Assembly: GCA_902774245.1 (NCBI GenBank)
Contig: CACYHQ010000006.1
Coordinates: forward strand, 62,001-126,000
Length of the DNA stretch: 64,000 bases
Reading direction: 5' to 3'
Source of the DNA: an uncultured bacterium
Lineage (GTDB): Bacteria; Verrucomicrobiota; Lentisphaeria; Victivallales; UBA1829
Within the stretch, counting starts at the first letter, position 1; the number at the start of each line of letters is the position of its first letter. Both the position numbers and the translations under genes were made by a program. Positions 7,538 through 64,000 of the stretch are shown in pieces. The notes under the pieces are model-generated. The model was not told the DNA's origin and made no database searches. It was given only the letters and a program-made list of their open reading frames with translations.

Positions 7538-7588
7538 GAACAAGATGAAAGCCCGCTGAAATAAGCAGGCTGATTTCTAAAAACAGTT

Positions 7589-7632
7589 CGTCCGCTTCCA
7601 CGGCGCACACCGTTCGGAAGCGGACGTTTTTT
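7589..7632 (+). terminator. Rho-independent terminator after GH97
   Basis: CGTCCGCTTCC (7589-7599) pairs perfectly with GGAAGCGGACG (7616-7626) and is followed by TTTTTT. It also separates this gene from the convergent operon on the other strand. Confidence 0.9.
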
Positions 7633-7705
7633 ATGGTTTGAAATGGGGAGCCCGTCTTCGCGCGTTCAGTTCATGACTGGATTGCGGACAGGGCGGTTCA
7701 GCGTA

Positions 7706-8791
7706 TCACTTCGGGACGAAATGATACTGCGATGCCCGTCTTTGTTTGAACTCGGGGTCGACGACCAGGACTTTGGACAGCACTTCCGTGCAGCGTCCGC
7801 AGTGCGTGCAGCTGGTCGCGCATTTGCCGCCGATGCCACTCTCCGCCCAGTCCGCCGGGAACCGTTTGTTGTCGAGGATGTACGGCCGGAAGAAGAACGT
7901 GTAGACCGGGTCGAGGAGGCCCAGCAGATTGCCGTCGTAGCTGCGCTCGCAGTAGGCACGGATGATGCGCTCCGGATCGGGGACCGCGCGGGTCGAGAGT
8001 TTGACCACATCGACCTCGTCCTCGTAATAATGCAGGTCTTCCGGGCGAATCCAGGACGAACGCAGGATCTCCTCATACTGCTTCTTCATGTACATGTTGA
8101 TGCAGCGCGACGGCTGGATGCCCGTACGCTTCGTTTCCGGCACGGTCCGGCTCAATCCGTGCGAATTGATCGTCTCGTGGAAGAAATGGAACGGACAGTT
8201 CCGCAGGCAGCTTCCGTTCACGAGCATGCACAGCTTCTTGCCGTGGTCGCGGGTCCATTTGCGGAACGCCCGGAGCGTGGGCAGATCGCGCTGGAGATCG
8301 CGGCTGATGTAGTAGGAATCGAACATCGGCGCCATGTATTCCATGGAGATGATGCTGTCCACGCGCGCGTTCACGGACGCCCGGATGTCGATCTTCGGGA
8401 AATCGCGCTTGATGATCTGCGCCAGGTACGGCGAGATGACCGTGACGGTCTCCGGCAGGATGCCCCGGCTGTCCATGTCGGCCAGCGCGCCGATCACGCG
8501 GTCATGCTGTGCCGCCGTAAACGCCTCTTCGCCGTAGCACATGGCGTTGATGAGCAGATCTAGCGAAAGCCCCTTGGAGCGAGCCCAGCGCATATCCTCG
8601 GTGACGATGCCTTTCAGCTTTTCCGTTTCGCCGACCATTCTGCGGGCGTTTTTCAGATCCGGCCAGGAAAAGAACACCTCCTGAATGTGGTCCTGATAGC
8701 GTCCTACAACATCCTGAAATTCGCATTTGGCGTTGCCGAAGAAATGTCCGACCGCGTATTTCTTTCTGACGTGCTGTATCTGCTTGTCCAT
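7706..8791 (-). CDS. Cys-rich U32-like TIM-barrel protein, paralogue 3
   Basis: 361 aa. The start at 8791 (MDKQIQ) has an AAAGGA ribosome binding site and aligns with its paralogues; a TTG 39 bases upstream is less likely. It is the third of three tandem paralogues. Shared landmarks are AVGHFFG near the N-terminus, an LLINAMCYGEEA segment, ASVNARVDS, a CMLVNGSCLRNCP Cys motif mid-protein and a C-terminal CTHCGRC cluster. The pattern resembles the U32 peptidase-like family (UbiU/UbiV/YhbU type), whose members use conserved Cys residues for a 4Fe-4S cluster and often act in RNA or quinone modification. That assignment is by motif resemblance only. Substrate unknown. Confidence 0.6.
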   Translation of the reverse strand: MDKQIQHVRKKYAVGHFFGNAKCEFQDVVGRYQDHIQEVFFSWPDLKNARRMVGETEKLKGIVTEDMRWARSKGLSLDLLINAMCYGEEAFTAAQHDRVIGALADMDSRGILPETVTVISPYLAQIIKRDFPKIDIRASVNARVDSIISMEYMAPMFDSYYISRDLQRDLPTLRAFRKWTRDHGKKLCMLVNGSCLRNCPFHFFHETINSHGLSRTVPETKRTGIQPSRCINMYMKKQYEEILRSSWIRPEDLHYYEDEVDVVKLSTRAVPDPERIIRAYCERSYDGNLLGLLDPVYTFFFRPYILDNKRFPADWAESGIGGKCATSCTHCGRCTEVLSKVLVVDPEFKQRRASQYHFVPK

Positions 8792-54189: not shown

Positions 54190-55719
54190 TCAGAATTCTT
54201 TTTTGAGGCCGAGGCGGTTCATGCGGTAGTTCATCATGCGCGGAGAAAGCCCGAGCTTGCGGCCGGCGGCGGAAAGGTTGCCGTCGTTCTTGCGGATGGC
54301 GTCCTGAAGAATCTCGCGCTCGTAGTTGGCGAGCAGGACTTCGAGCGTGGAGGAATCGTCGCCAATGGTAGCGGCGGGCGATCCGGAAGAAGACGCGCCG
54401 ACGGCCTGGAGCGAGGGCGGCAGGTTCTGTGCCTGGACGCAGTCATCGGTAGCGGTGAGCACGGCGCGTTCCATGCAGTTTTCGAGTTCGCGGACGTTGC
54501 CCGGCCAGCTGTAGTTCATGAGCAGGTGGATCGCGCCGGGCGAGAGCTTGCGAATCGCCTTGTTGTACTTCACGTTCAGGTTCTCGATGAAATACTCGGC
54601 GAGCAGGATGATGTCGCTCTTGCGTTGGGCGAGCGGCGGCATCATGATGGGGAAGATGTTCAGGCGGTAATACAGGTCCTCGCGGAAGAGCTTCTTCTCC
54701 ATCAGCTCCTCGAGGTTGCGGCTGGTGGCGGCGAGAAACCGCACGTTGGAATGCAGCTCTTCGTTGCTGCCGACGCGCGAGAAAGTGCGTTCCTGCAGGA
54801 ACCGCAGGAGCTTCACCTGGGTCTGCATGGTCAGGTCGCCGATCTCGTCGAGGAAGAGCGTGCCGCCGTCGGCGGCCTCGGCGCGTCCGATGCGGCGGCT
54901 GACCGCGCCCGTGAACGCGCCTTTTTCATGCCCGAAAAGCTCGCTTTCGACGAGGTTTTCCGGGAGGGCGGCGCAGTTCAGCGTGATGAACGGCTTGTCC
55001 TTGCGCCCCGAGAGCTCGACGATGGCGCGGGCGAGGAGTTCCTTTCCGGTGCCGCTGGCGCCCCGGATCAGGACTGTGGCGTCGGACGGTGCGACCTGGC
55101 GGAGCTGTTCATAGACGAGCTGCATCTCGCGACAGTTTCCGATCATCTTGCCGGGGGCCTTCTGGAGCATGCTGCGGAGCTTGCGATTTTCCTCGAGCAG
55201 GGATTCGCGTTCGTCGTGGATCTCCACGCAGGCGGCCGCGGCATCGGCGGTGATGTTCGCGATGATCTCCAGGAACGCGACGTCGCTGTCAAGGTCGGTG
55301 TCCGGCAGAACGGGACGGTCGATGGAGAGCGTACCGATCACGTTTTCGTGGTGGATCAGCGGGACACAGATGAACGCGACCTGTTCGGTGTAATGCCGCG
55401 CGCCGGTCCTGTTCAGGAACCGGGCGTCGTTGCGGAGGTCCGGGATCACATGGCTGTGTCCGGTCTCGGCGACGTGTCCGGTGATGCCCTCGCCGATGCG
55501 GTAGTGTCCGAGCTTCTTTTCCGTTTCGGCGAGTCCACAGGAGACCTCGATCTTCAGGGTGTCGCCGTACAGAAGGGCGAACGTGCCCCGGATCATGCCC
55601 ATGTCGCTTTCGAGAATGGCGAGGACGCTTTCGAGGAGCGCCTGCACATCGCGTTCACGGGTGATGACCGAGCTGACCTTCTGAATGACGAGGAGTTGCG
55701 GACTGGCAAGTTTATTCAT
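54190..55719 (-). CDS. NifA-type sigma54-dependent transcriptional activator
   Basis: 509 aa. N-terminal GAF domain (about 20-165), AAA+ domain (about 192-425) with Walker A GASGTGKE (220-227), the sigma54-contact loop GAFTGA (267-272), Walker B TLFLDEIGD and the sensor/arginine-finger region FREDLYYRLN, then a Fis-type helix-turn-helix (about 460-505, NLSAAGRKLGLSPRMMNYRM). It is an intact enhancer-binding protein of the GAF class, like NifA. Its position next to gltD-gltB, and sigma54-type promoters in front of gltB and purF, suggest it senses nitrogen or a small metabolite and drives those genes. No Shine-Dalgarno precedes the ATG. Confidence 0.93.
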   Translation of the reverse strand: MNKLASPQLLVIQKVSSVITRERDVQALLESVLAILESDMGMIRGTFALLYGDTLKIEVSCGLAETEKKLGHYRIGEGITGHVAETGHSHVIPDLRNDARFLNRTGARHYTEQVAFICVPLIHHENVIGTLSIDRPVLPDTDLDSDVAFLEIIANITADAAAACVEIHDERESLLEENRKLRSMLQKAPGKMIGNCREMQLVYEQLRQVAPSDATVLIRGASGTGKELLARAIVELSGRKDKPFITLNCAALPENLVESELFGHEKGAFTGAVSRRIGRAEAADGGTLFLDEIGDLTMQTQVKLLRFLQERTFSRVGSNEELHSNVRFLAATSRNLEELMEKKLFREDLYYRLNIFPIMMPPLAQRKSDIILLAEYFIENLNVKYNKAIRKLSPGAIHLLMNYSWPGNVRELENCMERAVLTATDDCVQAQNLPPSLQAVGASSSGSPAATIGDDSSTLEVLLANYEREILQDAIRKNDGNLSAAGRKLGLSPRMMNYRMNRLGLKKEF

Positions 55720-55727
55720 GATAATAT

Positions 55728-55756
55728 AATATACATGTTTGGTTATGTTTTATCAA
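55728..55756 (-). promoter_or_regulatory. Promoter of the sigma54 activator gene
   Basis: Minus strand TTGATA (complement of 55751-55756), 17-bp spacer, TATATT (complement of 55728-55733). The predicted start is only about 2 bases before the ATG at 55719, so the mRNA may be leaderless. Confidence 0.65.
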
Positions 55757-55803: not shown

Positions 55804-57183
55804 TCATGCCAAATCGCGGATAATCTCCTGAACCGTTTTCTTCGCGTCGGCCATTGCGCGGACCACAAGCGAAGCGCCGGTGGTGCAGTCGCCGACAGTG
55901 TAGACGCTGCGTTCCGGGTCGGCGATCAGGCCGTTGCGGGGCGTCATTTTGAGCTTGAGATCGGCGGAAGGCCCCTTGGGATCGGCTCCGGTGAAGCCCA
56001 TGGCGAGCAGGATCAGGTCGGCTTCAATGACGCGCGTGGAGTTTTCGACCGCGACGGGCTTCAGCGGCCTGCCTTCGGGCGTGGTCTCCCACTTGACGGA
56101 ATGCACCTCGACTCCGGTCAGGACGCCGTTTTCGCCGAGGAACCGGTCGCTCGCCACGTTCCACTCGCGTTCGCAGCCTTCCTTGTGGCTGGAGCTGGTG
56201 CGGAGCATCCACGGCCAGGCGGGCCACGGCGTGGATTCGGAACGCGTCTCGGGCGGCATGGGCATGATCTCGACCTGTTTCACGCTCGCCGCGCCCTGAC
56301 GGATCGCGGTCCCGGCGCAGTCGCTGCCGGTGTCGCCGCCGCCGATGATGAGCACTCGCTTGCCCTTTGCGCTGACGGGGAGCGTGCGGAGTTCGCCGCC
56401 GTTCACGCGGTTCTGCCCCTGGAGGAATTCGAGCGCAAAGTGGACACCGTTCAGGTCGCGGCCGGGGATGTTCAGGTCGCGGGCGCACGGAGTCCCGGTC
56501 GCGAGCACGACAGCGTCGTAGTTGCGGAGGAGATACTGCCCGGCGACGTCGAGCCCGATGCGGCAGTCGGTCTGGAATTCGATCCCCGCCTGGCGCATGA
56601 GGGAGATGCGGCGGTCGATGACGCGTTTGTCGAGCTTGAAATCGGGGATGCCGTAGCGGAGCAGTCCGCCGGGCTTGTGGTTCGCTTCGAATACCTTGAC
56701 GCTGAATCCTGCGCGGTTCAGCGCCTCGGCGGCGTACAGGCCGGACGGGCCGCTGCCGACGACGGCGATGCGCTTGCCGTTGCGGAGCGCGGGGACGACC
56801 GGCTTCACCCAGCCGTTTTCAAACGCGGTCTCGACGATGACTTTTTCGCACTGGCGCACCATCACGGGGTCGTCGTTGACGCCGTTGCAGCAAGCGCCCT
56901 CGCACAACGCGGGGCAGATGCGGCAGGTGAACTCGGGGAAGAAACTGGTCTCGGAGAGGATGCGCCAGGCGGTCAGCCAGTCGCCGGATGCGGCGGCGCT
57001 GTTGAAATCGGGGATGACGTTTCCGAGGGGACAGCCCGCGCCGTGGCAGAACGGGACGCCGCAGTTATGGCAGCGGAGCATCTGCTCGCGGATCTGCTCG
57101 GGTGCGAGGCGGACTTCGACTTCATTGAAATCGCGGACGCGTTCGTCCGCGGGACGGTAGATATCATGAATGCGTTCGATCAT
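55804..57183 (-). CDS. gltD: Glutamate synthase small subunit
   Basis: 459 aa. ATG 57183 (MIERIHDIYRP) was preferred over a TTG two codons upstream; AAAGGAG lies about 10 bases before it. N-terminal Fe-S domain: CHNCGVPFCHGAGCPLGN and CRICPALCEGACC, two 4Fe-4S clusters. Then FAD binding VVGSGPSGLYAAEALNRAG, an NADPH domain with LIIGGGDTGSD and the terminal FAD contact VYTVGDCTTGASLVV. It passes electrons from NADPH to GltB, which makes glutamate from glutamine and 2-oxoglutarate. Starts 18 bases after gltB. Confidence 0.95.
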   Translation of the reverse strand: MIERIHDIYRPADERVRDFNEVEVRLAPEQIREQMLRCHNCGVPFCHGAGCPLGNVIPDFNSAAASGDWLTAWRILSETSFFPEFTCRICPALCEGACCNGVNDDPVMVRQCEKVIVETAFENGWVKPVVPALRNGKRIAVVGSGPSGLYAAEALNRAGFSVKVFEANHKPGGLLRYGIPDFKLDKRVIDRRISLMRQAGIEFQTDCRIGLDVAGQYLLRNYDAVVLATGTPCARDLNIPGRDLNGVHFALEFLQGQNRVNGGELRTLPVSAKGKRVLIIGGGDTGSDCAGTAIRQGAASVKQVEIMPMPPETRSESTPWPAWPWMLRTSSSHKEGCEREWNVASDRFLGENGVLTGVEVHSVKWETTPEGRPLKPVAVENSTRVIEADLILLAMGFTGADPKGPSADLKLKMTPRNGLIADPERSVYTVGDCTTGASLVVRAMADAKKTVQEIIRDLA

Positions 57184-57201
57184 GGTCAATTGGCTCCTTT
57201 C

Positions 57202-60200
57202 TCAGCGGGCGGCGTGTGCGAGTGCGTTTCGGTATTCGACGGGGAAGATGCGGACGAATTTCGGGCGGTACTGCTCCCAGTCGGAGAGCATGCGCGCAGC
57301 CTTCCTGCTGCCGGTTTCGTGGAAATACTCCTCCAGCAGGGACTTCAGCTCGTGTTCGGCTTCGGTGCCGGACTCGATGCTTTCCAGGTCGATGCCGTCC
57401 GTGCTGCAGCTGAGGTCGAAATGGCCCTTCTCATCGTAGATGTACGCCAGCCCGCCGGTCATGCCGGCGGCGAAGTTCACGCCCACGTGTCCGAGCACGA
57501 CCACGCGGCCGCCGGTCATGTATTCGCAGCCGTGGTCGCCCACGCCCTCGGCGACGAGCGTCATGCCGCTGTTGCGGATGGCGAAGCGTTCGCCCGCGAT
57601 GCCGTAGAGGAAGATCTTGCCCGAGGTGCCGCCGTACCCGATCACGTTTCCGGCGATCACGTTGTTCTCGGCGTCGTAGCCCGCGTTTTCGGGCGGACGG
57701 ATCACGATCTTGCCGCCGGAAAGGCCCTTGCCGACGAAGTCGTTCGCCTCGCCCTCCAGACGGAGCGTGACGCCCTTCGGCAGGAACGCGCCGAAACTCT
57801 GTCCGGCGGTGCCGGTGAGGTTGACCTGGATCGTGTCCTCGGCGAGCTTGTTTTCGCCGAACTTCTCCGCCACGATCCCGGCAAGTTCCGCGCCCGCGGT
57901 GCGGTCGGAGTTCGTGATGACGGTGGAAATGCTTTCCTTTTTTCCGTTCAGTTTCAGCTTCGGCAGGATGGCGCGGCGGTCGAAGTTCACGAGTTCATAC
58001 GGCGCTTCGTTCGCGTCGAAATGAACCGCGTTGCCCTTGACCTGCTCGAAAATCTTGCTGAAATCGAGGCGGATGGTCTTGTAGAAATCGACCGCATGAT
58101 TCGTTTCGAGCAGGTCGGAGCGTCCGCACGCCTCTTCCAGCGAATGCAGGCCGAGCGAGGCGAGGTGTTCGCGGACCTCCTGCGCGATGAACCGCAGGAA
58201 GTTGATGATATATTCGGGCTTGCCCGCGAAGCGTTTGCGGAGCTCGGGATCCTGCGTAGCCACACCCATCGGGCAGGTATTGCTGTGGCACTGGCGCATC
58301 ATCACGCAGCCGATGCAGACGAGGATCGTGGTGGCGAATCCGAATTCCTCCGCGCCGAGCAGCGCGGCGATGACCACGTCGCGCCCGGTCTTCAGCTGGC
58401 CGTCCACCTGGAGCTTGATCTTGCCGCGCAGGCCGTTCAGCACGAGCGTCTGCTGGGCTTCCGCCACACCGAGTTCCCACGGGAGTCCGGCGTGCTTGAT
58501 GCTGGTGAGCGGGGACGCGCCCGTGCCGCCGTCGTGGCCGGAGACCAGCACCACGTCAGCGTGCGCCTTGGCGACGCCCGCGGCGACCGTGCCGACGCCG
58601 AGCTCGGAGACGAGTTTCACGGAGATGCGCGCCTTCGGGTTGGCGTTGCGGAGGTCGTAAATGAGCTGGGCGAGGTCCTCGATGGAGTAGATGTCGTGGT
58701 GCGGCGGCGGGGAGATGAGCGTGACGCCGGGCATGGCGTGGCGGATCTTCGCGACGAATTCGTTGACCTTGTGGCCGGGCAGCTGTCCGCCCTCGCCGGG
58801 CTTGGCTCCCTGCGCCATCTTGATCTGGATGTCGCGGGCGTTGCGGAGGTATTCGATCGTGACGCCGAACCGTCCGCTGGCGACCTGCTTGATCGCGGAA
58901 TTGAACTCGGTGCCGAAACGTTCGGAGTTCTCGCCGCCCTCGCCGCTGTTGCTCATCGCGCCGACCGCGTTCATGGCTTTCGCGATGGTCTCGTGCGCCT
59001 CGGGACTGAGGGAGCCGAGGCTCATCGCGCCGGAAACGAAGCGTTTCAGGATGCTTTCGACGCTTTCGACCTCATCGACGGAGATCGCGCGTTTCTTTTT
59101 GAACTGGAAGAGGCCGCGCAGGGTGCACAGGCGGTGCGCCTGGTCGTCGATCATGCGGCTGTACTCCTTGAACTTGCCGTAATCGCCTTTCTGCACGGCC
59201 TGACGGAACGTGCCCAGCGATTCGGGCGTCCAGAGGTGCGCCTCGCCGTCCTTGCGGTAACGGTACTGGCCGCCGCCGGGGAGCAGCGGGGATTCGGCGC
59301 ATTCCGCGGCGGACGCGCGCAGGACTGCCTCGTGGGCGATCTCCGCGAGTCCGATGCCGCCGACGCGGCTGGCCGTGCCGGGGAGGAATTCGCGGAGGAA
59401 ATCGGGATTCAGGCCGACCGCCTCGAACGCCTGCGCGGAACGGTAGCTCCGGAGCGTGGAGATGCCAAGTTTGGACATGATCTTCAGCAGGCCCTTGTCG
59501 ACTGCCTTGATGTAATTGCTCGCGGCGGTCACGGGATCAAGCCCGAGCGCGCCGGAATTCGCCAGCGCGGACACCGTGGCGAGCGCCAGATACGGATTCA
59601 CCGCGGTCGCGCCGTAGCCCAGCAGCAGCGCGAAATGCATGACCTCGCGCACCTCGCCGGACTGCACGATCAGGCCGGTTTCCGGACGGAGCCCGGCGTC
59701 GACCAGAGCGCGGTTCGCGGCGGAACACGACAGCAGGCTCGGGATCGCCGCCTGCCCCTCCGGCAGATCGCGGTCGGACAGGATCAGGATGTGTTCGCCC
59801 GCCTTCGCGGCCGCGACTGCCTGTTCTTCGAGGTTTTTCAGCGCGGCGCGCAGCGCGGCCTCCCCGCCCTTCGCCGGGAATCCGCAGCTCAGGGTGCGCG
59901 AACGGTACCCCTGCACGCCGAAGTTCTGAAGATGGCGGAGCTCGTCGTCGGTGAGGACCGGGCGGCGGAGTTTGATGAGGCGGGCGTGTTCGGGCGTTTC
60001 CTCCAGGATGTTGCCCTTGTTGCCGATGTAGGTCATCAGGCTCATCACAAGTTCCTCGCGGATCGGATCGATCGGCGGGTTCGTGACCTGCGCGAAGAGC
60101 TGTTTGAAATACTGGAACAGCAGCTGCGGACGTTCGGAGAGCACGGCGAGCGCGGCGTCGTTGCCCATCGACCCGACCGGCTCCTTGCCCTGGATCGCCA

Positions 60201-61617
60201 TCGGCTTCAGGATCACATCCATGTCCTCGCGGGTGTACCCGAAGAAACGCTGTCTGTGCGTCAGGTCCTCCTCCGGGCGCGAGGCGGTGATGTCGGTGAA
60301 GAGGCCGTGCACGGAGAGGCGGTTCTCCTCGACCCAGCGGCGGTACGGCTTGCTGCGCGCCAGACGGTTCTTGACCTCCGAATCCGGCACGATGCGGTGA
60401 TTCTCCATGTCCAGCAGGATGATCTCGCCGGGTTTCAGGCGGCCCTTCAGCTCCACGTCTTCGGCGGGAATATCCAACACGCCGGTCTCGCTCGCGAGCA
60501 CGAAAAGACCGTCTTTACATTTTGTGTATCGTGCCGGACGCAGGCCGTTGCGGTCCAGGATCGCGCCCGCGTTCACGCCGTCGGAGAACGCGATGGCGGC
60601 GGGACCGTCCCACGGCTCCATGAGCGCGGAGTGGTATTCGAAGAACCCGCGCACGTCGCGTCCCATATAATATTTCGCGCCCCACGCCTGCGGGATCAGC
60701 ATCAGCATGGCGTGTTCCGGGGAACGCCCCGCGGCGACGAGCAGTTCGAACATGTTGTCGAGCGAGGCGGAATCGCTCTGTCCGGGTTCGATCAGCGGGA
60801 GCAGTTTCGCGAGGTCGTCGCCGAACAGCTCGCTCTTCAGGAGATGCTCGCGCGCCTTCATGGCGTTCAGGTTGCCGCGCAGGGTGTTGATTTCGCCGTT
60901 GTGCGCCAGGTAGCGGAACGGATGCGCCAGCTGCCACGTCGGGAACGTGTTCGTGCTGTAGCGCTGGTGCACGATCGCGAGGCGCGAACGGAATAGCTCG
61001 TCGTCGAGGTCGGGATAGAACTGTTCCAGCTGGGTCGCAAGAAGCAGTCCTTTATAGACGATATTGCGCGACGACATGCTGCAGATGTAAAGGTCGAGCT
61101 TGCGCTTCTCGATCAGGCGGCGCATCACGAAGAGCTTGCGTTCGAACGCCGCGTTGTCCTCGAAATACCGTCCGTCGATGAAGAGCTGACGGATCACCGG
61201 CATGTTCTTGCGGGCGGTGCGGCCGATCTTCTCCGGCACGACCGGGACTTCGCGCCAGCCCAGGACGCCGCCGCCTTCCGCGCGGATGACGTCTTCCACA
61301 TCCTGTTCCGCGCCGAGTCCGCCGAAGACCATCGCAACGGCGTATTTCCCGGCTTCGGGCAGTTTCTTCACGCCGGATTTCGCACGGAAGAACTCATCGG
61401 GCATGGAGAGCAGAAGCCCGGCGCCGTCGCCGGTTTCCGGATCGCTTCCGGCCGCGCCGCGGTGCATCAGGCGGCACAGGATCGTAATTCCTTTTGTTAC
61501 AATATCGTGCGATGCGCGCCCGTTGAGGTCGGCGACCATGCCGACGCCGCATGCGTCATGCTCCTGCCGCGGATCGTAGAGTCCCTGCGGTTGCTGTCGA
61601 AAGATTTGCTGTTCCAT
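57202..61617 (-). CDS. gltB: Glutamate synthase large subunit
   Basis: 1471 aa, normal length. ATG 61617 gives a 22-residue propeptide (ending DPRQEHDA) before the N-terminal nucleophile Cys23 (CGVG) of the class II glutamine amidotransferase. Then the central domain (about 440-750), the FMN/synthase barrel (about 800-1200) with ISPPPHHDIYSIEDL, GHDGGTGASPL and the 3Fe-4S segment CIGCVMMRQCHSNTCPMG, and the C-terminal GXGXG beta-helix. AAAGGC before the start is a weak Shine-Dalgarno. A sigma54-type promoter lies about 50 bases upstream, and gltD follows in the same operon. Confidence 0.96.
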   Translation of the reverse strand: MEQQIFRQQPQGLYDPRQEHDACGVGMVADLNGRASHDIVTKGITILCRLMHRGAAGSDPETGDGAGLLLSMPDEFFRAKSGVKKLPEAGKYAVAMVFGGLGAEQDVEDVIRAEGGGVLGWREVPVVPEKIGRTARKNMPVIRQLFIDGRYFEDNAAFERKLFVMRRLIEKRKLDLYICSMSSRNIVYKGLLLATQLEQFYPDLDDELFRSRLAIVHQRYSTNTFPTWQLAHPFRYLAHNGEINTLRGNLNAMKAREHLLKSELFGDDLAKLLPLIEPGQSDSASLDNMFELLVAAGRSPEHAMLMLIPQAWGAKYYMGRDVRGFFEYHSALMEPWDGPAAIAFSDGVNAGAILDRNGLRPARYTKCKDGLFVLASETGVLDIPAEDVELKGRLKPGEIILLDMENHRIVPDSEVKNRLARSKPYRRWVEENRLSVHGLFTDITASRPEEDLTHRQRFFGYTREDMDVILKPMAIQGKEPVGSMGNDAALAVLSERPQLLFQYFKQLFAQVTNPPIDPIREELVMSLMTYIGNKGNILEETPEHARLIKLRRPVLTDDELRHLQNFGVQGYRSRTLSCGFPAKGGEAALRAALKNLEEQAVAAAKAGEHILILSDRDLPEGQAAIPSLLSCSAANRALVDAGLRPETGLIVQSGEVREVMHFALLLGYGATAVNPYLALATVSALANSGALGLDPVTAASNYIKAVDKGLLKIMSKLGISTLRSYRSAQAFEAVGLNPDFLREFLPGTASRVGGIGLAEIAHEAVLRASAAECAESPLLPGGGQYRYRKDGEAHLWTPESLGTFRQAVQKGDYGKFKEYSRMIDDQAHRLCTLRGLFQFKKKRAISVDEVESVESILKRFVSGAMSLGSLSPEAHETIAKAMNAVGAMSNSGEGGENSERFGTEFNSAIKQVASGRFGVTIEYLRNARDIQIKMAQGAKPGEGGQLPGHKVNEFVAKIRHAMPGVTLISPPPHHDIYSIEDLAQLIYDLRNANPKARISVKLVSELGVGTVAAGVAKAHADVVLVSGHDGGTGASPLTSIKHAGLPWELGVAEAQQTLVLNGLRGKIKLQVDGQLKTGRDVVIAALLGAEEFGFATTILVCIGCVMMRQCHSNTCPMGVATQDPELRKRFAGKPEYIINFLRFIAQEVREHLASLGLHSLEEACGRSDLLETNHAVDFYKTIRLDFSKIFEQVKGNAVHFDANEAPYELVNFDRRAILPKLKLNGKKESISTVITNSDRTAGAELAGIVAEKFGENKLAEDTIQVNLTGTAGQSFGAFLPKGVTLRLEGEANDFVGKGLSGGKIVIRPPENAGYDAENNVIAGNVIGYGGTSGKIFLYGIAGERFAIRNSGMTLVAEGVGDHGCEYMTGGRVVVLGHVGVNFAAGMTGGLAYIYDEKGHFDLSCSTDGIDLESIESGTEAEHELKSLLEEYFHETGSRKAARMLSDWEQYRPKFVRIFPVEYRNALAHAAR

Positions 61618-61667
61618 GTTTTTGCCTTTCTTCGTCAAGTTCAAATTGAAATAGATCAGCGGTGTTT

Positions 61668-61683
61668 AGCAAATCCCATGCCA
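61668..61683 (-). promoter_or_regulatory. Sigma54-type promoter of gltBD
   Basis: Minus strand TGGCAT-GGGAT-TTGCT: the invariant GG (complement of 61681-61682) and GC (complement of 61669-61670) are separated by exactly 10 bp, as in the -24/-12 consensus TGGCAC-N5-TTGCA. Predicted start near 61657, about 40 bases before the gltB ATG. No convincing sigma70 promoter is seen for gltB. Confidence 0.72.
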
Positions 61684-61716
61684 ACGCTCATTTCAGCGGA
61701 AACGCGACCAACACTT

Positions 61717-61731
61717 TTACAGGTTTTGTAA
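61717..61731. promoter_or_regulatory. Dyad operator 1, TTACA-N5-TGTAA
   Basis: Perfect 15-bp inverted repeat TTACAGGTTTTGTAA, centred 58-67 bp upstream of the gltB promoter. Same architecture as 61748-61762. Position fits an upstream activating sequence for a sigma54 activator. Confidence 0.68.
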
Positions 61732-61747
61732 TCATGTAATTTCGTAT

Positions 61748-61762
61748 TTACAAATCGTGTAA
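61748..61762. promoter_or_regulatory. Dyad operator 2, TTACA-N5-TGTAA
   Basis: TTACAAATCGTGTAA, centre 31 bp (three helical turns) from dyad 1, so both would be bound on the same DNA face. An extra half-site TGTAA at 61735-61739 lies between them. Confidence 0.68.
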
Positions 61763-61794
61763 TATCCATTCGCCGTTCCCGCCTCACCGCCGTT

Positions 61795-61810
61795 TGGCAT
61801 GTTTTATGCT
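61795..61810 (+). promoter_or_regulatory. Sigma54-type promoter of purF-carA
   Basis: Plus strand TGGCAT-GTTTT-ATGCT: GG at 61796-61797 and GC at 61808-61809 with 10 bp between. One departure from consensus (A for the first T of TTGC). Predicted start near 61820, about 50 bases before the purF ATG. Confidence 0.6.
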
Positions 61811-61872
61811 TTATCACCCCACGAAAAACAGTATCAAAATCTTCTTAACTCCGCACGGAAAGGAGTACCGCA

Positions 61873-63594
61873 ATGTCTGATGCGGTCAAACACGAATGCG
61901 CGGTCGCGCTGCTCCGGCTTCGCAAACCTCAGGAATACTATTTCAGCAAGTACGGCAGCGCCGACTACGGATTCAGCAAGATGGCGCTCCTGCTCGAAAA
62001 ACAGCACAACCGCGGACAGGACGGCGCCGGGATCGCGTCGCTGTATTTGAATCCGGAACCGGGTCTGCCGGCGTATCGCGTGGAACGTTCCGCCGCCTCG
62101 GAAGACCCGCTGGCGGACCTGCTCGGACGGTGCGGCGGCGCGCCGGGATTCGACGGCGGCATCCTGCTGGGACATCTGCGCTACGCGACCTACGGACGGC
62201 ACGAGGAATCCGCCTGCCATCCGTTCGTGCACGATTCGAACTGTCTGCGGCGGACCCTGCTGCTCGCGGGGAATTTCAACCTCACGGGCGCGCACGACCT
62301 CTTTGATAAATTTCTGAAGCTCGGACACCATCCGAAAAGCAAGGCGGACGGCTACCTGATCCTCCAGATCATCGCGCACTACCTGGAACAGGACTCCAAT
62401 CTTCACCCCGGTTCGCCGGACTGGGCGAAGATCCTGCGGCAGGCATTGAACGGCCTTGACGGCGCGTTCACGCTCTGCGGCTTCAACGGCGCAGGCGACG
62501 CTTTTACCATCCGGGACCCCCATGCGATACGTCCCGGATATTTTTATTTTGACGACGAGGTATTCGCGGCGGCGAGCGAACGTCCCGCGATCCAGGCGGC
62601 GTTCGACTGCGCCACGTCCGAGGTCATGGAGATCCCGCCGGGCAAGGCGGTGATCGCGCGTGCGGACGGCGGGGTGGAGATCCTCGACTGTCTGGAGCCC
62701 GCCGAACGCCGCAGCTGCGTCTTCGAGCGCATCTATTTCTCGCGTCCGAACGACGCGGACATCCACCGCGAACGCAAACGCCTCGGCAAATCTCTTGTTC
62801 CGGCGGTGCTTCAGGCGGCGGACAACGATTTCGACACGACATTTTTCAGCTATATCCCGAATTCCGCGCGCGTCAGCTACCATGGCATGCTCGAAACGCT
62901 CTTCACGATGGCGGCGCATCAGGACCGTCTCGTGCGCTTCGGCGAAATCGCGATCAAGGACGCGAAATTCCGCACGTTCATCGCCGACGCCGACAGCCGC
63001 CGCGAGCTCTACATGCACGTCTACGACGTGACCTACGGGCTGATCCGGCCGGGCGTGGACACGCTGGTCGTGCTGGACGACTCCATCGTGCGCGGCAACA
63101 CCATGCGGAACGCGATTCTGCCGATCCTCGACCGCCTCGGCCCGAAACGCATTATTGTGGCGAGCTCCGCGCCCCCGGTCAAATACCCCGACTGCTACGG
63201 TATCGACATGGCGTGCGCGGGCGATCTGGCGGCGTTTCAGGCCGCGGTCGCGATCCTGAAGCGCACCGACCGCGAAAGCGTTCTGAACCGCGCCTGCGAG
63301 GCGGCGAGGAAAGCGCTCTCCGGCGGCGCGCCAAACGAAAACCACATGCGCGACATCTACGACGCCATTGAGGAGAACGAGCTCCACGAAGAGATCGCGC
63401 GTCTCCTCACTCCGCCCGGACTCAAGGCGGAACTCAAGGTCGTCTACCAGACCGTCGAGGCGCTGCATTCCTGCTGCCCGGACTACCCCGGCGACTGGTA
63501 TTTCACGGGGGACTACCCCACGCCCGGCGGCATCCGCACGGCGAACCGCGCGCTGGTGAACTTCATGGAAAACAATCAGGAAAGAGCATACTGA
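61873..63594 (+). CDS. purF: Amidophosphoribosyltransferase (PurF-like)
   Basis: 573 aa. ATG follows AAAGGAG. First step of purine synthesis: glutamine plus PRPP to phosphoribosylamine. A short propeptide precedes the likely N-terminal nucleophile Cys9 (KHECAVALL). The glutaminase domain shows HNRGQDGAGIAS and LLGHLRYATYG; the phosphoribosyltransferase domain shows the PRPP motif VVLDDSIVRGNT and SSAPPVKYPDCYGIDM. It is longer than E. coli PurF (505 aa), with an extended C-terminus ending in a YPGDWYFTGDYPTPGG segment, as in a Bacteroidetes-like long form. It is one base from carA. Confidence 0.9.
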   Translation: MSDAVKHECAVALLRLRKPQEYYFSKYGSADYGFSKMALLLEKQHNRGQDGAGIASLYLNPEPGLPAYRVERSAASEDPLADLLGRCGGAPGFDGGILLGHLRYATYGRHEESACHPFVHDSNCLRRTLLLAGNFNLTGAHDLFDKFLKLGHHPKSKADGYLILQIIAHYLEQDSNLHPGSPDWAKILRQALNGLDGAFTLCGFNGAGDAFTIRDPHAIRPGYFYFDDEVFAAASERPAIQAAFDCATSEVMEIPPGKAVIARADGGVEILDCLEPAERRSCVFERIYFSRPNDADIHRERKRLGKSLVPAVLQAADNDFDTTFFSYIPNSARVSYHGMLETLFTMAAHQDRLVRFGEIAIKDAKFRTFIADADSRRELYMHVYDVTYGLIRPGVDTLVVLDDSIVRGNTMRNAILPILDRLGPKRIIVASSAPPVKYPDCYGIDMACAGDLAAFQAAVAILKRTDRESVLNRACEAARKALSGGAPNENHMRDIYDAIEENELHEEIARLLTPPGLKAELKVVYQTVEALHSCCPDYPGDWYFTGDYPTPGGIRTANRALVNFMENNQERAY

Positions 63595-63595
63595 C

Positions 63596-64000
63596 ATGGA
63601 CGAATATAAGGATTTGTGGAAACAGCAGCGCGAACGGAAGGCGTTTCTCGCGCTCGCGGACGGCACGGTCTTCCACGGCTACGCGTTCGGCGACCTGCAC
63701 GACCGCACGGGCGAAGCCGTGTTCAATACCGGCATGACCGGATATCAGGAGATCATCTCCGACCCGTCCTACGCGGGGCAGTTCGTGACGCTCACGACCG
63801 CCGAGGTCGGCAATTACGGCTGCACGCAGGAGGACATGGAATCGCGGAGCCTCTTCCTCAACGGCTTGATCATACAGGAACTCAATCCCGCCTCGAACTG
63901 GCGTTCCCGCGAGGAACTGTCTGCGATCATGAAGCGGTACGGCAAACCCGGCCTCGCCGGAGTCGACACGCGCGCGCTGACGCTGCATCTGCGCACGAAA
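63596..64000 (+). CDS. carA: Carbamoyl-phosphate synthase small subunit, 3' partial
   Basis: 135 codons present, cut by the window end. ATG 63596 lies one base after the purF stop and follows AGGAAAG. The CarA N-terminal domain is clear: LALADGTVFHGYAFG, GEAVFNTGMTGYQEIISDPSYAGQ, and PGLAGVDTRALTLHLR. The C-terminal glutaminase domain is beyond the window. With purF it forms a transcription unit of glutamine-using nucleotide genes. Confidence 0.93.
   Translation, partial: MDEYKDLWKQQRERKAFLALADGTVFHGYAFGDLHDRTGEAVFNTGMTGYQEIISDPSYAGQFVTLTTAEVGNYGCTQEDMESRSLFLNGLIIQELNPASNWRSREELSAIMKRYGKPGLAGVDTRALTLHLRTK

Follow-up and report, generated by a model that had tools for sequence, protein, structure and literature searches.

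Nitrogen control by sigma54 is known mainly from Proteobacteria, where NtrC and NtrB govern glnA and glnK-amtB through this sigma factor and a palindromic enhancer. Divergent sigma54 promoters sharing one enhancer are known at nif and flagellar genes, and in NifA the GAF domain senses 2-oxoglutarate or a PII protein. In Geobacter sulfurreducens, the operons for glutamine synthetase (GS) and glutamate synthase (GOGAT) are under RpoN (PMC2725144). In E. coli, genomic SELEX with RpoN yielded a 31-32% in-vitro peak at cvpA-purF-ubiX, given in the tables of that study (PMC8743547).

The locus described here lies between gltB and a purF-like gene in a stretch of 64,000 nucleotides (the window; bases 62001-126000 of contig C6) from a genome that is 86% complete at 2.84 Mb. 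The closest named relatives of its activator (ACT) and of its PurF-like protein are from Lentisphaerota, including Victivallis and Victivallales records, which makes Victivallales the likely order of the host. As with NtrC/NtrB, predicted sigma54 control of glutamine synthetase and ammonium transport is accompanied by a palindromic enhancer; unlike NtrC, ACT carries a GAF domain instead of a receiver, and the glutamine synthetase, glnN, is type III. NifA regulons share with the ACT system the GAF-AAA-HTH order, sigma54 promoters, upstream palindromes and the nitrogen theme. However, although nifA (TIGR01817) is the best NCBIfam match of ACT, its 452.4 bits are under the equivalog cut-off of 528.85, and the putative targets are ammonia assimilation and nucleotide synthesis. 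With the divergent nif and flagellar promoters the locus has in common one predicted enhancer between two sigma54 promoters, but it differs in that, across genera, the placement favors two distances separated by about one turn, and in joining nitrogen assimilation to glutamine-using nucleotide synthesis.

That sigma54 controls the synthesis of glutamine and glutamate is known; what is new is that nucleotide amidotransferases are added to it, and the geometry. In the main text of the Geobacter study (PMC2725144), purF, carbamoyl, purine and pyrimidine do not occur. Sigma54 control of purF-carA had been put forward as an arrangement not known to be described, and no account of sigma54 control joining purF, gltB and carA was found among the matches listed in the open-licence literature, which does not imply absence from print; the available parts of PMC4641369, PMC12316311, PMC4591121 and PMC3333781 do not describe it either. 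The claim is narrowed by the E. coli peak, as a result of which sigma54 near purF is not wholly unmentioned; the available text of PMC8743547 shows no functional purF test and contains neither gltB nor carA. In this Lentisphaerota lineage, purF, carAB and pyrG, whose products drain glutamine into nucleotide synthesis, appear to share the switch of glutamate synthase and, in relatives, of glutamine synthetase.

Leftward from the gap run gltB, the large subunit of glutamate synthase (57202..61617 on the minus strand, start codon at complement 61617; NCBIfam NF008730, 1706.6 bits, above the cut-off of 1047), gltD, the small subunit (55804..57189, minus strand; TIGR01317, 508.8 bits, above 447.7), and, as the final gene of the cluster, ACT (54190..55719, minus strand, 509 aa). 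Rightward run the gene of a long PurF-like amidophosphoribosyltransferase (61873..63594, plus strand, 573 aa) and carA (63596..64000, plus strand; Pfam CPSase_sm_chain), which continues past the window end. Beyond the window follow pyrG (L043:711-2330) and carB (L043:2314-5586) in overlapping frames, and the genes of this purF-carA-pyrG-carB operon are separated by a 1-bp gap or overlap. The homology of the window PurF-like protein to solved PurF is clear (E. coli PurF 1ecb, phmmer E 6.6e-25), while its 130.5 bits on TIGR01134 are below the PurF equivalog cut-off of 350; its Lentisphaeria relatives are named class II glutamine amidotransferase or amidophosphoribosyltransferase. It contains a cysteine near the N-terminus (KHEC) and the motif VVLDDSIVRG, and is a candidate amidophosphoribosyltransferase. 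A second PurF-like protein is encoded at L286:1123-2766 (G000:C2); it lacks the N-terminal cysteine of the window protein, because its probable start is MGGFFG, and it could supply basal purine synthesis. The rpoN gene, on which the original prediction depended, is present in the source genome (PF04552, E 4.7e-60).

In the gap, the sigma54 -24/-12 core of gltB (TGGCATGGGATTTGCT, complement 61668-61683) and that of purF (TGGCATGTTTTATGCT, 61795-61810, plus strand) are both GG-N10-GC and near consensus. Between them lie two TTACA-N5-TGTAA dyads, palindrome 1 (TTACAGGTTTTGTAA, 61717-61731) and palindrome 2 (TTACAAATCGTGTAA, 61748-61762), spaced 31 bp around a midpoint at 61739.5, from which the GGs of the cores are 58 and 57 bp away. 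The predicted cores, dyads and spacing were thus recovered base for base and at exactly the predicted coordinates. A further TGTAA half-site lies between the palindromes (61735..61739) and is kept in 10 or 11 of 11 genomes per column. No sigma70-like promoter was found in the gltB/purF gap, and an Rfam scan of the regulatory regions gave no match. Many of these promoters have, ahead of their -24 box, a loosely defined element resembling TTTTCCGCTSAAA (61685-61705 and 61781-61794 in the window); an ad-hoc pattern for it fits 39 of 94 promoters. The exact dyad occurs twice in the source genome, both times in this gap, and the backward control pattern is also found twice. A single palindrome is therefore not remarkable alone, and the count of two exact dyads in the genome was dropped as sole evidence.

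Conservation was assessed in 137 genomes of the order, 80 of which had matches to gltB at E<=1e-200. After eight genomes without the gltB N-terminus were left out, 72 upstream regions were examined: 49 had a divergent glnN (33) or purF (16) as next gene, 22 did not, and one (G079) ran off its contig end. Cores were called at 0.86 or more of a score built on the consensus, and dyad pairs at no more than 2 mismatches over 20 half-site bases with centres 29-34 bp apart. Both cores were found in 45 of the 49 divergent-layout genomes and the dyad pair in 41, compared to 0.04 and 0.0 expected from 100 dinucleotide shuffles of each of the 49 orthologous gaps; a chance origin of cores and dyad pair was therefore rejected. 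As predicted, these elements are conserved both in close and in more distant relatives. The exceptions were eight genomes without a qualifying dyad pair and four with the right core only, the left being absent. Among the 22 regions without divergent glnN or purF none had both cores; four of them (G064, G065, G066, and G074) do have a dyad pair, without both cores and without ACT at E<=1e-180. Exact N5 pairs with a gap of 8-24 bases occurred once each in 15 of the 137 genomes (backward control, 0), in 13 cases between gltB and glnN or purF and in the other two before glnN.

Within the genus of the window, the footprints of 11 genomes of the window's type were aligned. The purF core was the best conserved feature of those measured (14 of 16 columns invariant), and the gltB core had a mean column conservation of 0.96 with 10 of 16 columns invariant. 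In palindrome 2 all 10 half-site columns were invariant while the N5 varied and the surroundings drifted too; in palindrome 1 it was 8 of 10, with the N5 partly kept. The gltB/purF gap is a real, strongly conserved regulatory region. One member of the genus, G007 (92% complete), had no matches to long purF, gltB or ACT and retained the glnN core and dyads; either loss or a missing contig would account for this.

The distance from the midpoint of the dyad pair to the GG of each core was determined in 41 genomes, giving 79 values, which are not independent since the genomes are related, and which were grouped after they had been seen. All 63 distances below 80 bp fell at 56-61 or 65.5-70.5 bp, with none between 61 and 65.5, and the modes near 57.5 and 68 bp differ by about 10.5 bp, or about one helical turn. 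The group mostly went with the dyad spacer: with N5 dyads 33 of the 36 distances below 80 bp were at 56-61 (three at 68.5-69.5), and with N4 dyads 25 of 27 were at 65.5-70.5 (two at 56-58). In window-type gaps (11 genomes) both distances were 56-61, and in genus g13 both were 67-70.5 in eight of nine gaps. The remaining 16 of 79 distances were 86-281 bp, so one arm can drift: 151-281 bp separate the dyads from the left promoter in G014, G015, and G022, and 91-115 bp from the right promoter in G119, G129, and G104. Equal service of both promoters is therefore not evident in every genome. The mirror symmetry on which the original prediction was built is real in the window. Among 38 genomes with a measurable distance on either side, left and right values agreed within 4 bp in 23; symmetry is thus common, and perfect symmetry was rejected as a general rule.

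Gene order in the relatives extends the predicted purF-carA unit, which is present, in two ways: the operon is longer, as described above, and in 33 of the 49 genomes glnN comes first. In nine loci that read beyond glnN, purF and carA were next in all nine, pyrG in eight and carB in four, several loci ending earlier. The fullest order, pieced together from several loci, is ACT<dapL<dapF<gltD<gltB<|>glnN>purF>carA>pyrG>carB>. With glnN as the commonest first right-hand gene and purF and carA behind it, the arrangement looks like a GS/GOGAT switch that also carries nucleotide enzymes. Four g3 genomes and G015 also have purF directly behind the right core, with both cores retained; in the g3 genomes no carA, pyrG, or carB turned up downstream of purF, and the same was true of carA and carB in G015. 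The dapF- and dapL-like genes lie between gltD and ACT in L204, L200-L203, and L090 (the dapL name is inferred from Aminotran_1_2); at the switch of G123 (L204) they stand on the left and no gltBD is found there.

In the window's genus, except in G006, glnN is at a separate locus, to which it was likely relocated; it has its own sigma54 core and an imperfect dyad pair there. In the source genome these dyads are 30 bp apart, with 2 mismatches in total and a midpoint 59.5 bp from the GG; ten of the 12 genus genomes have a pair with 2 mismatches, while G002 and G008 have 3 and 4, respectively. A search of this genome for further dyad sites had been suggested; exact copies turned up nowhere outside the gltB/purF gap, and the glnN site with its sigma54 core is an imperfect one. 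The source-genome glnN is split into two overlapping frames (L063:6323-7636 and 7539-8432), likely by an assembly indel, since ten other genomes of the genus have one frame of more than 700 aa.

The activator at the end of the gltBD cluster proved to be of the predicted GAF type, with the Pfam domains GAF, Sigma54_activat and HTH_8 and no receiver domain. It has the features of a bacterial enhancer-binding protein, namely an AAA+ domain (PF00158) with GAFTGA (residue 267; Walker motif GASGTGKE at 220) and an HTH. Directly before ACT lies a sigma70-like promoter, TTGATA-17-TATATT (55728..55756, minus strand), which is seen in 11 of the 12 ACT-bearing genomes of the genus, G006 being the exception; G015 and G026 have it too. 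In G024 and G016 (L214 and L215), the activator gene contains one in-frame TAG each, at different positions. At E<=1e-180, ACT was detected in 43 of the 49 divergent-layout genomes (not in G129, G131, G077, G076, G073, and G075) compared to 0 of the 22 without this layout. This contrast is weak evidence: a further search at E<=1e-100, which covered 12 of the 22, found a more distant homologue in every one of them; as the outcome shifts with the E-value threshold, presence or absence of ACT was rejected as a clean marker. In G015 and the four g3 genomes ACT and gltBD lie on different contigs.

A stronger link between ACT and the dyads is the match between recognition helix and dyad spacer. The helix R-M-[MI]-x-Y-R went with N5 dyads in 19 of 19 tips, and R-[VI]-x-H-Y-[KQ] with N4 dyads in 20 of 20. 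The 41 dyad-pair genomes, from which the four without ACT were dropped, make up these 39 tips together with G020 and G027, labeled N4 on the basis of the dyads upstream of ACT; the tree was built from the residues before the HTH, and where a genome had two ACT-like proteins the best match was used. Since Fitch parsimony counts two changes, the independent evidence amounts to one or two events. In addition, G016, G020, and G027 have a perfect TTACA dyad 35-41 bp upstream of the ACT start. A sigma70-like promoter, TTGACT-16-TATATT, overlaps this dyad in G020 and G027, as would be compatible with autorepression.

On these grounds we regard it as highly probable, judging from sequence, that the gap is one two-way sigma54 enhancer from which ACT would switch on both gltB-gltD(-ACT) and purF-carA-pyrG-carB. 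The original reading of one activator on one enhancer is thereby supported by the neighborhood in many, not all, relatives, by the dyads before ACT in three genomes and by the helix-spacing match. As two dimers on the same DNA face, ACT would occupy the palindromes, whose spacing is three helical turns, and the oligomer formed there would reach sigma54 polymerase on either side. Basal ACT would come from its own sigma70-like promoter, and its level would rise by read-through from gltBD. The GAF domain may sense nitrogen state, via 2-oxoglutarate or a PII protein. Nitrogen limitation would then co-induce GOGAT along with enzymes that have to compete when glutamine is scarce, with glnN of the window's genus as a separate member of the same regulon; the gain would be that glutamate synthase, glutamine synthetase and the enzymes taking glutamine nitrogen into nucleotides are raised together when nitrogen is short.

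A fuller version of this reading, on which we are evenly divided, is a phase-locked mirror enhancer: a single NifA-like ring would serve two promoters that lie on the same DNA face at a distance of 57.5 or 68 bp, joining GOGAT (in relatives also glutamine synthetase) and the first, glutamine-consuming steps of the purine, pyrimidine and CTP pathways in one nitrogen switch, and dyad spacing and helix would have changed together, the usual promoter distance shifting with them by one turn. The two-distance mirror geometry and the helix tracking site spacing would make these genomes a natural series, both for how one ring serves two promoters and for the evolution of site specificity.

The dyads might instead serve one promoter only, the other having a different site or activator, in which case co-location would reflect packing and not co-regulation. 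Several genomes that keep one promoter at 56-70 bp while the other has drifted to 86-281 bp would suit this, as would the second activator of the source genome (receiver, AAA+ and HTH_8, with a histidine kinase). We consider it unlikely in view of the 45 of 49 genomes that retain both cores and of the paired distances in the 11 window-type gaps (56-61 bp) and in eight of nine g13 gaps (67-70.5 bp). An assignment of the dyads to another regulator, for example a repressor, with ACT acting elsewhere, strikes us as improbable. TTACA/TGTAA half-sites are simple and used by unrelated regulators, four divergent-layout genomes with a dyad pair (G129, G131, G076, and G073) had no ACT at E<=1e-180, and the overlap with the sigma70-like promoter at ACT in G020 and G027 is repressor-like. 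The helix-spacer match in 39 of 39 labeled tips and the dyads beside the ACT gene in three genomes argue for ACT itself, and none of the motifs tried for Crp/Fnr, NtcA, TyrR, NifA, or NtrC occurs in the window gap, so these sites were rejected. The NifA motif (TGT-N10-ACA) was seen in 3 of the 49 gaps and the NtrC motif (GCAC-N7-GTGC) in none.

It is very improbable, in our view, that purF merely kept the old promoter of glnN after glnN had left, so that the purF core would be a relic and an unseen housekeeping promoter would drive purF-carA. Such an origin would agree with glnN as first right-hand gene in 33 of 49 genomes and purF next in all nine loci that reach it, and purine and pyrimidine synthesis are required under all conditions. 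Against it, the purF core is the best conserved of the features measured (14 of 16 columns invariant in 11 genomes), no sigma70-like promoter was found in the gap, and purF stands directly behind the right core, with both cores kept, in the four g3 genomes and G015 as well. The reading we prefer thus remains the two-way enhancer used by ACT.

In the source genome as a whole, the pattern TGGCAYGNNNNWTGCW matched eight sites, compared to three for the backward control. They lie at gltB, purF and glnN, divergently from glnN, at an ammonium-transporter operon, at a secretin-domain gene and, the last two, on C7 and C8. A second amtB-type operon has TGGCACGGGATGTGCT. The sigma54-activator family gave six matches in this genome, of which two were strong, ACT and an NtrC/AtoC-type response regulator with receiver, AAA+ and HTH_8 domains that adjoins a histidine kinase. 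Two 113-aa proteins precede the ammonium-transporter genes (L062:5290-5628 and L216:2525-2863), each behind a sigma54 core; they look PII-like by eye, and the glnK-like one, when searched, had no Pfam or NCBIfam match.

In L063:5828-6009 (G000:C5, complement), a sigma54 core pointing leftward, some 255 bp ahead of that of glnN, is followed by a terminator-like hairpin of 13 bp, whose loop (CTCTTTTCCGTGTTTTTGGGC) is invariant, and by a run of Ts. Eleven of the 12 genus genomes have this core, and the hairpin was seen in all 10 with enough sequence (folding z -2.8; no Rfam match); a small RNA driven by sigma54 and divergent from glnN may be encoded here. A long frame running antisense to glnN ends within this candidate and is likely spurious. 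The sigma54 core upstream of the secretin-domain protein (TGGCACGGGATTTGCT, L066:5567-5582) is a perfect one.
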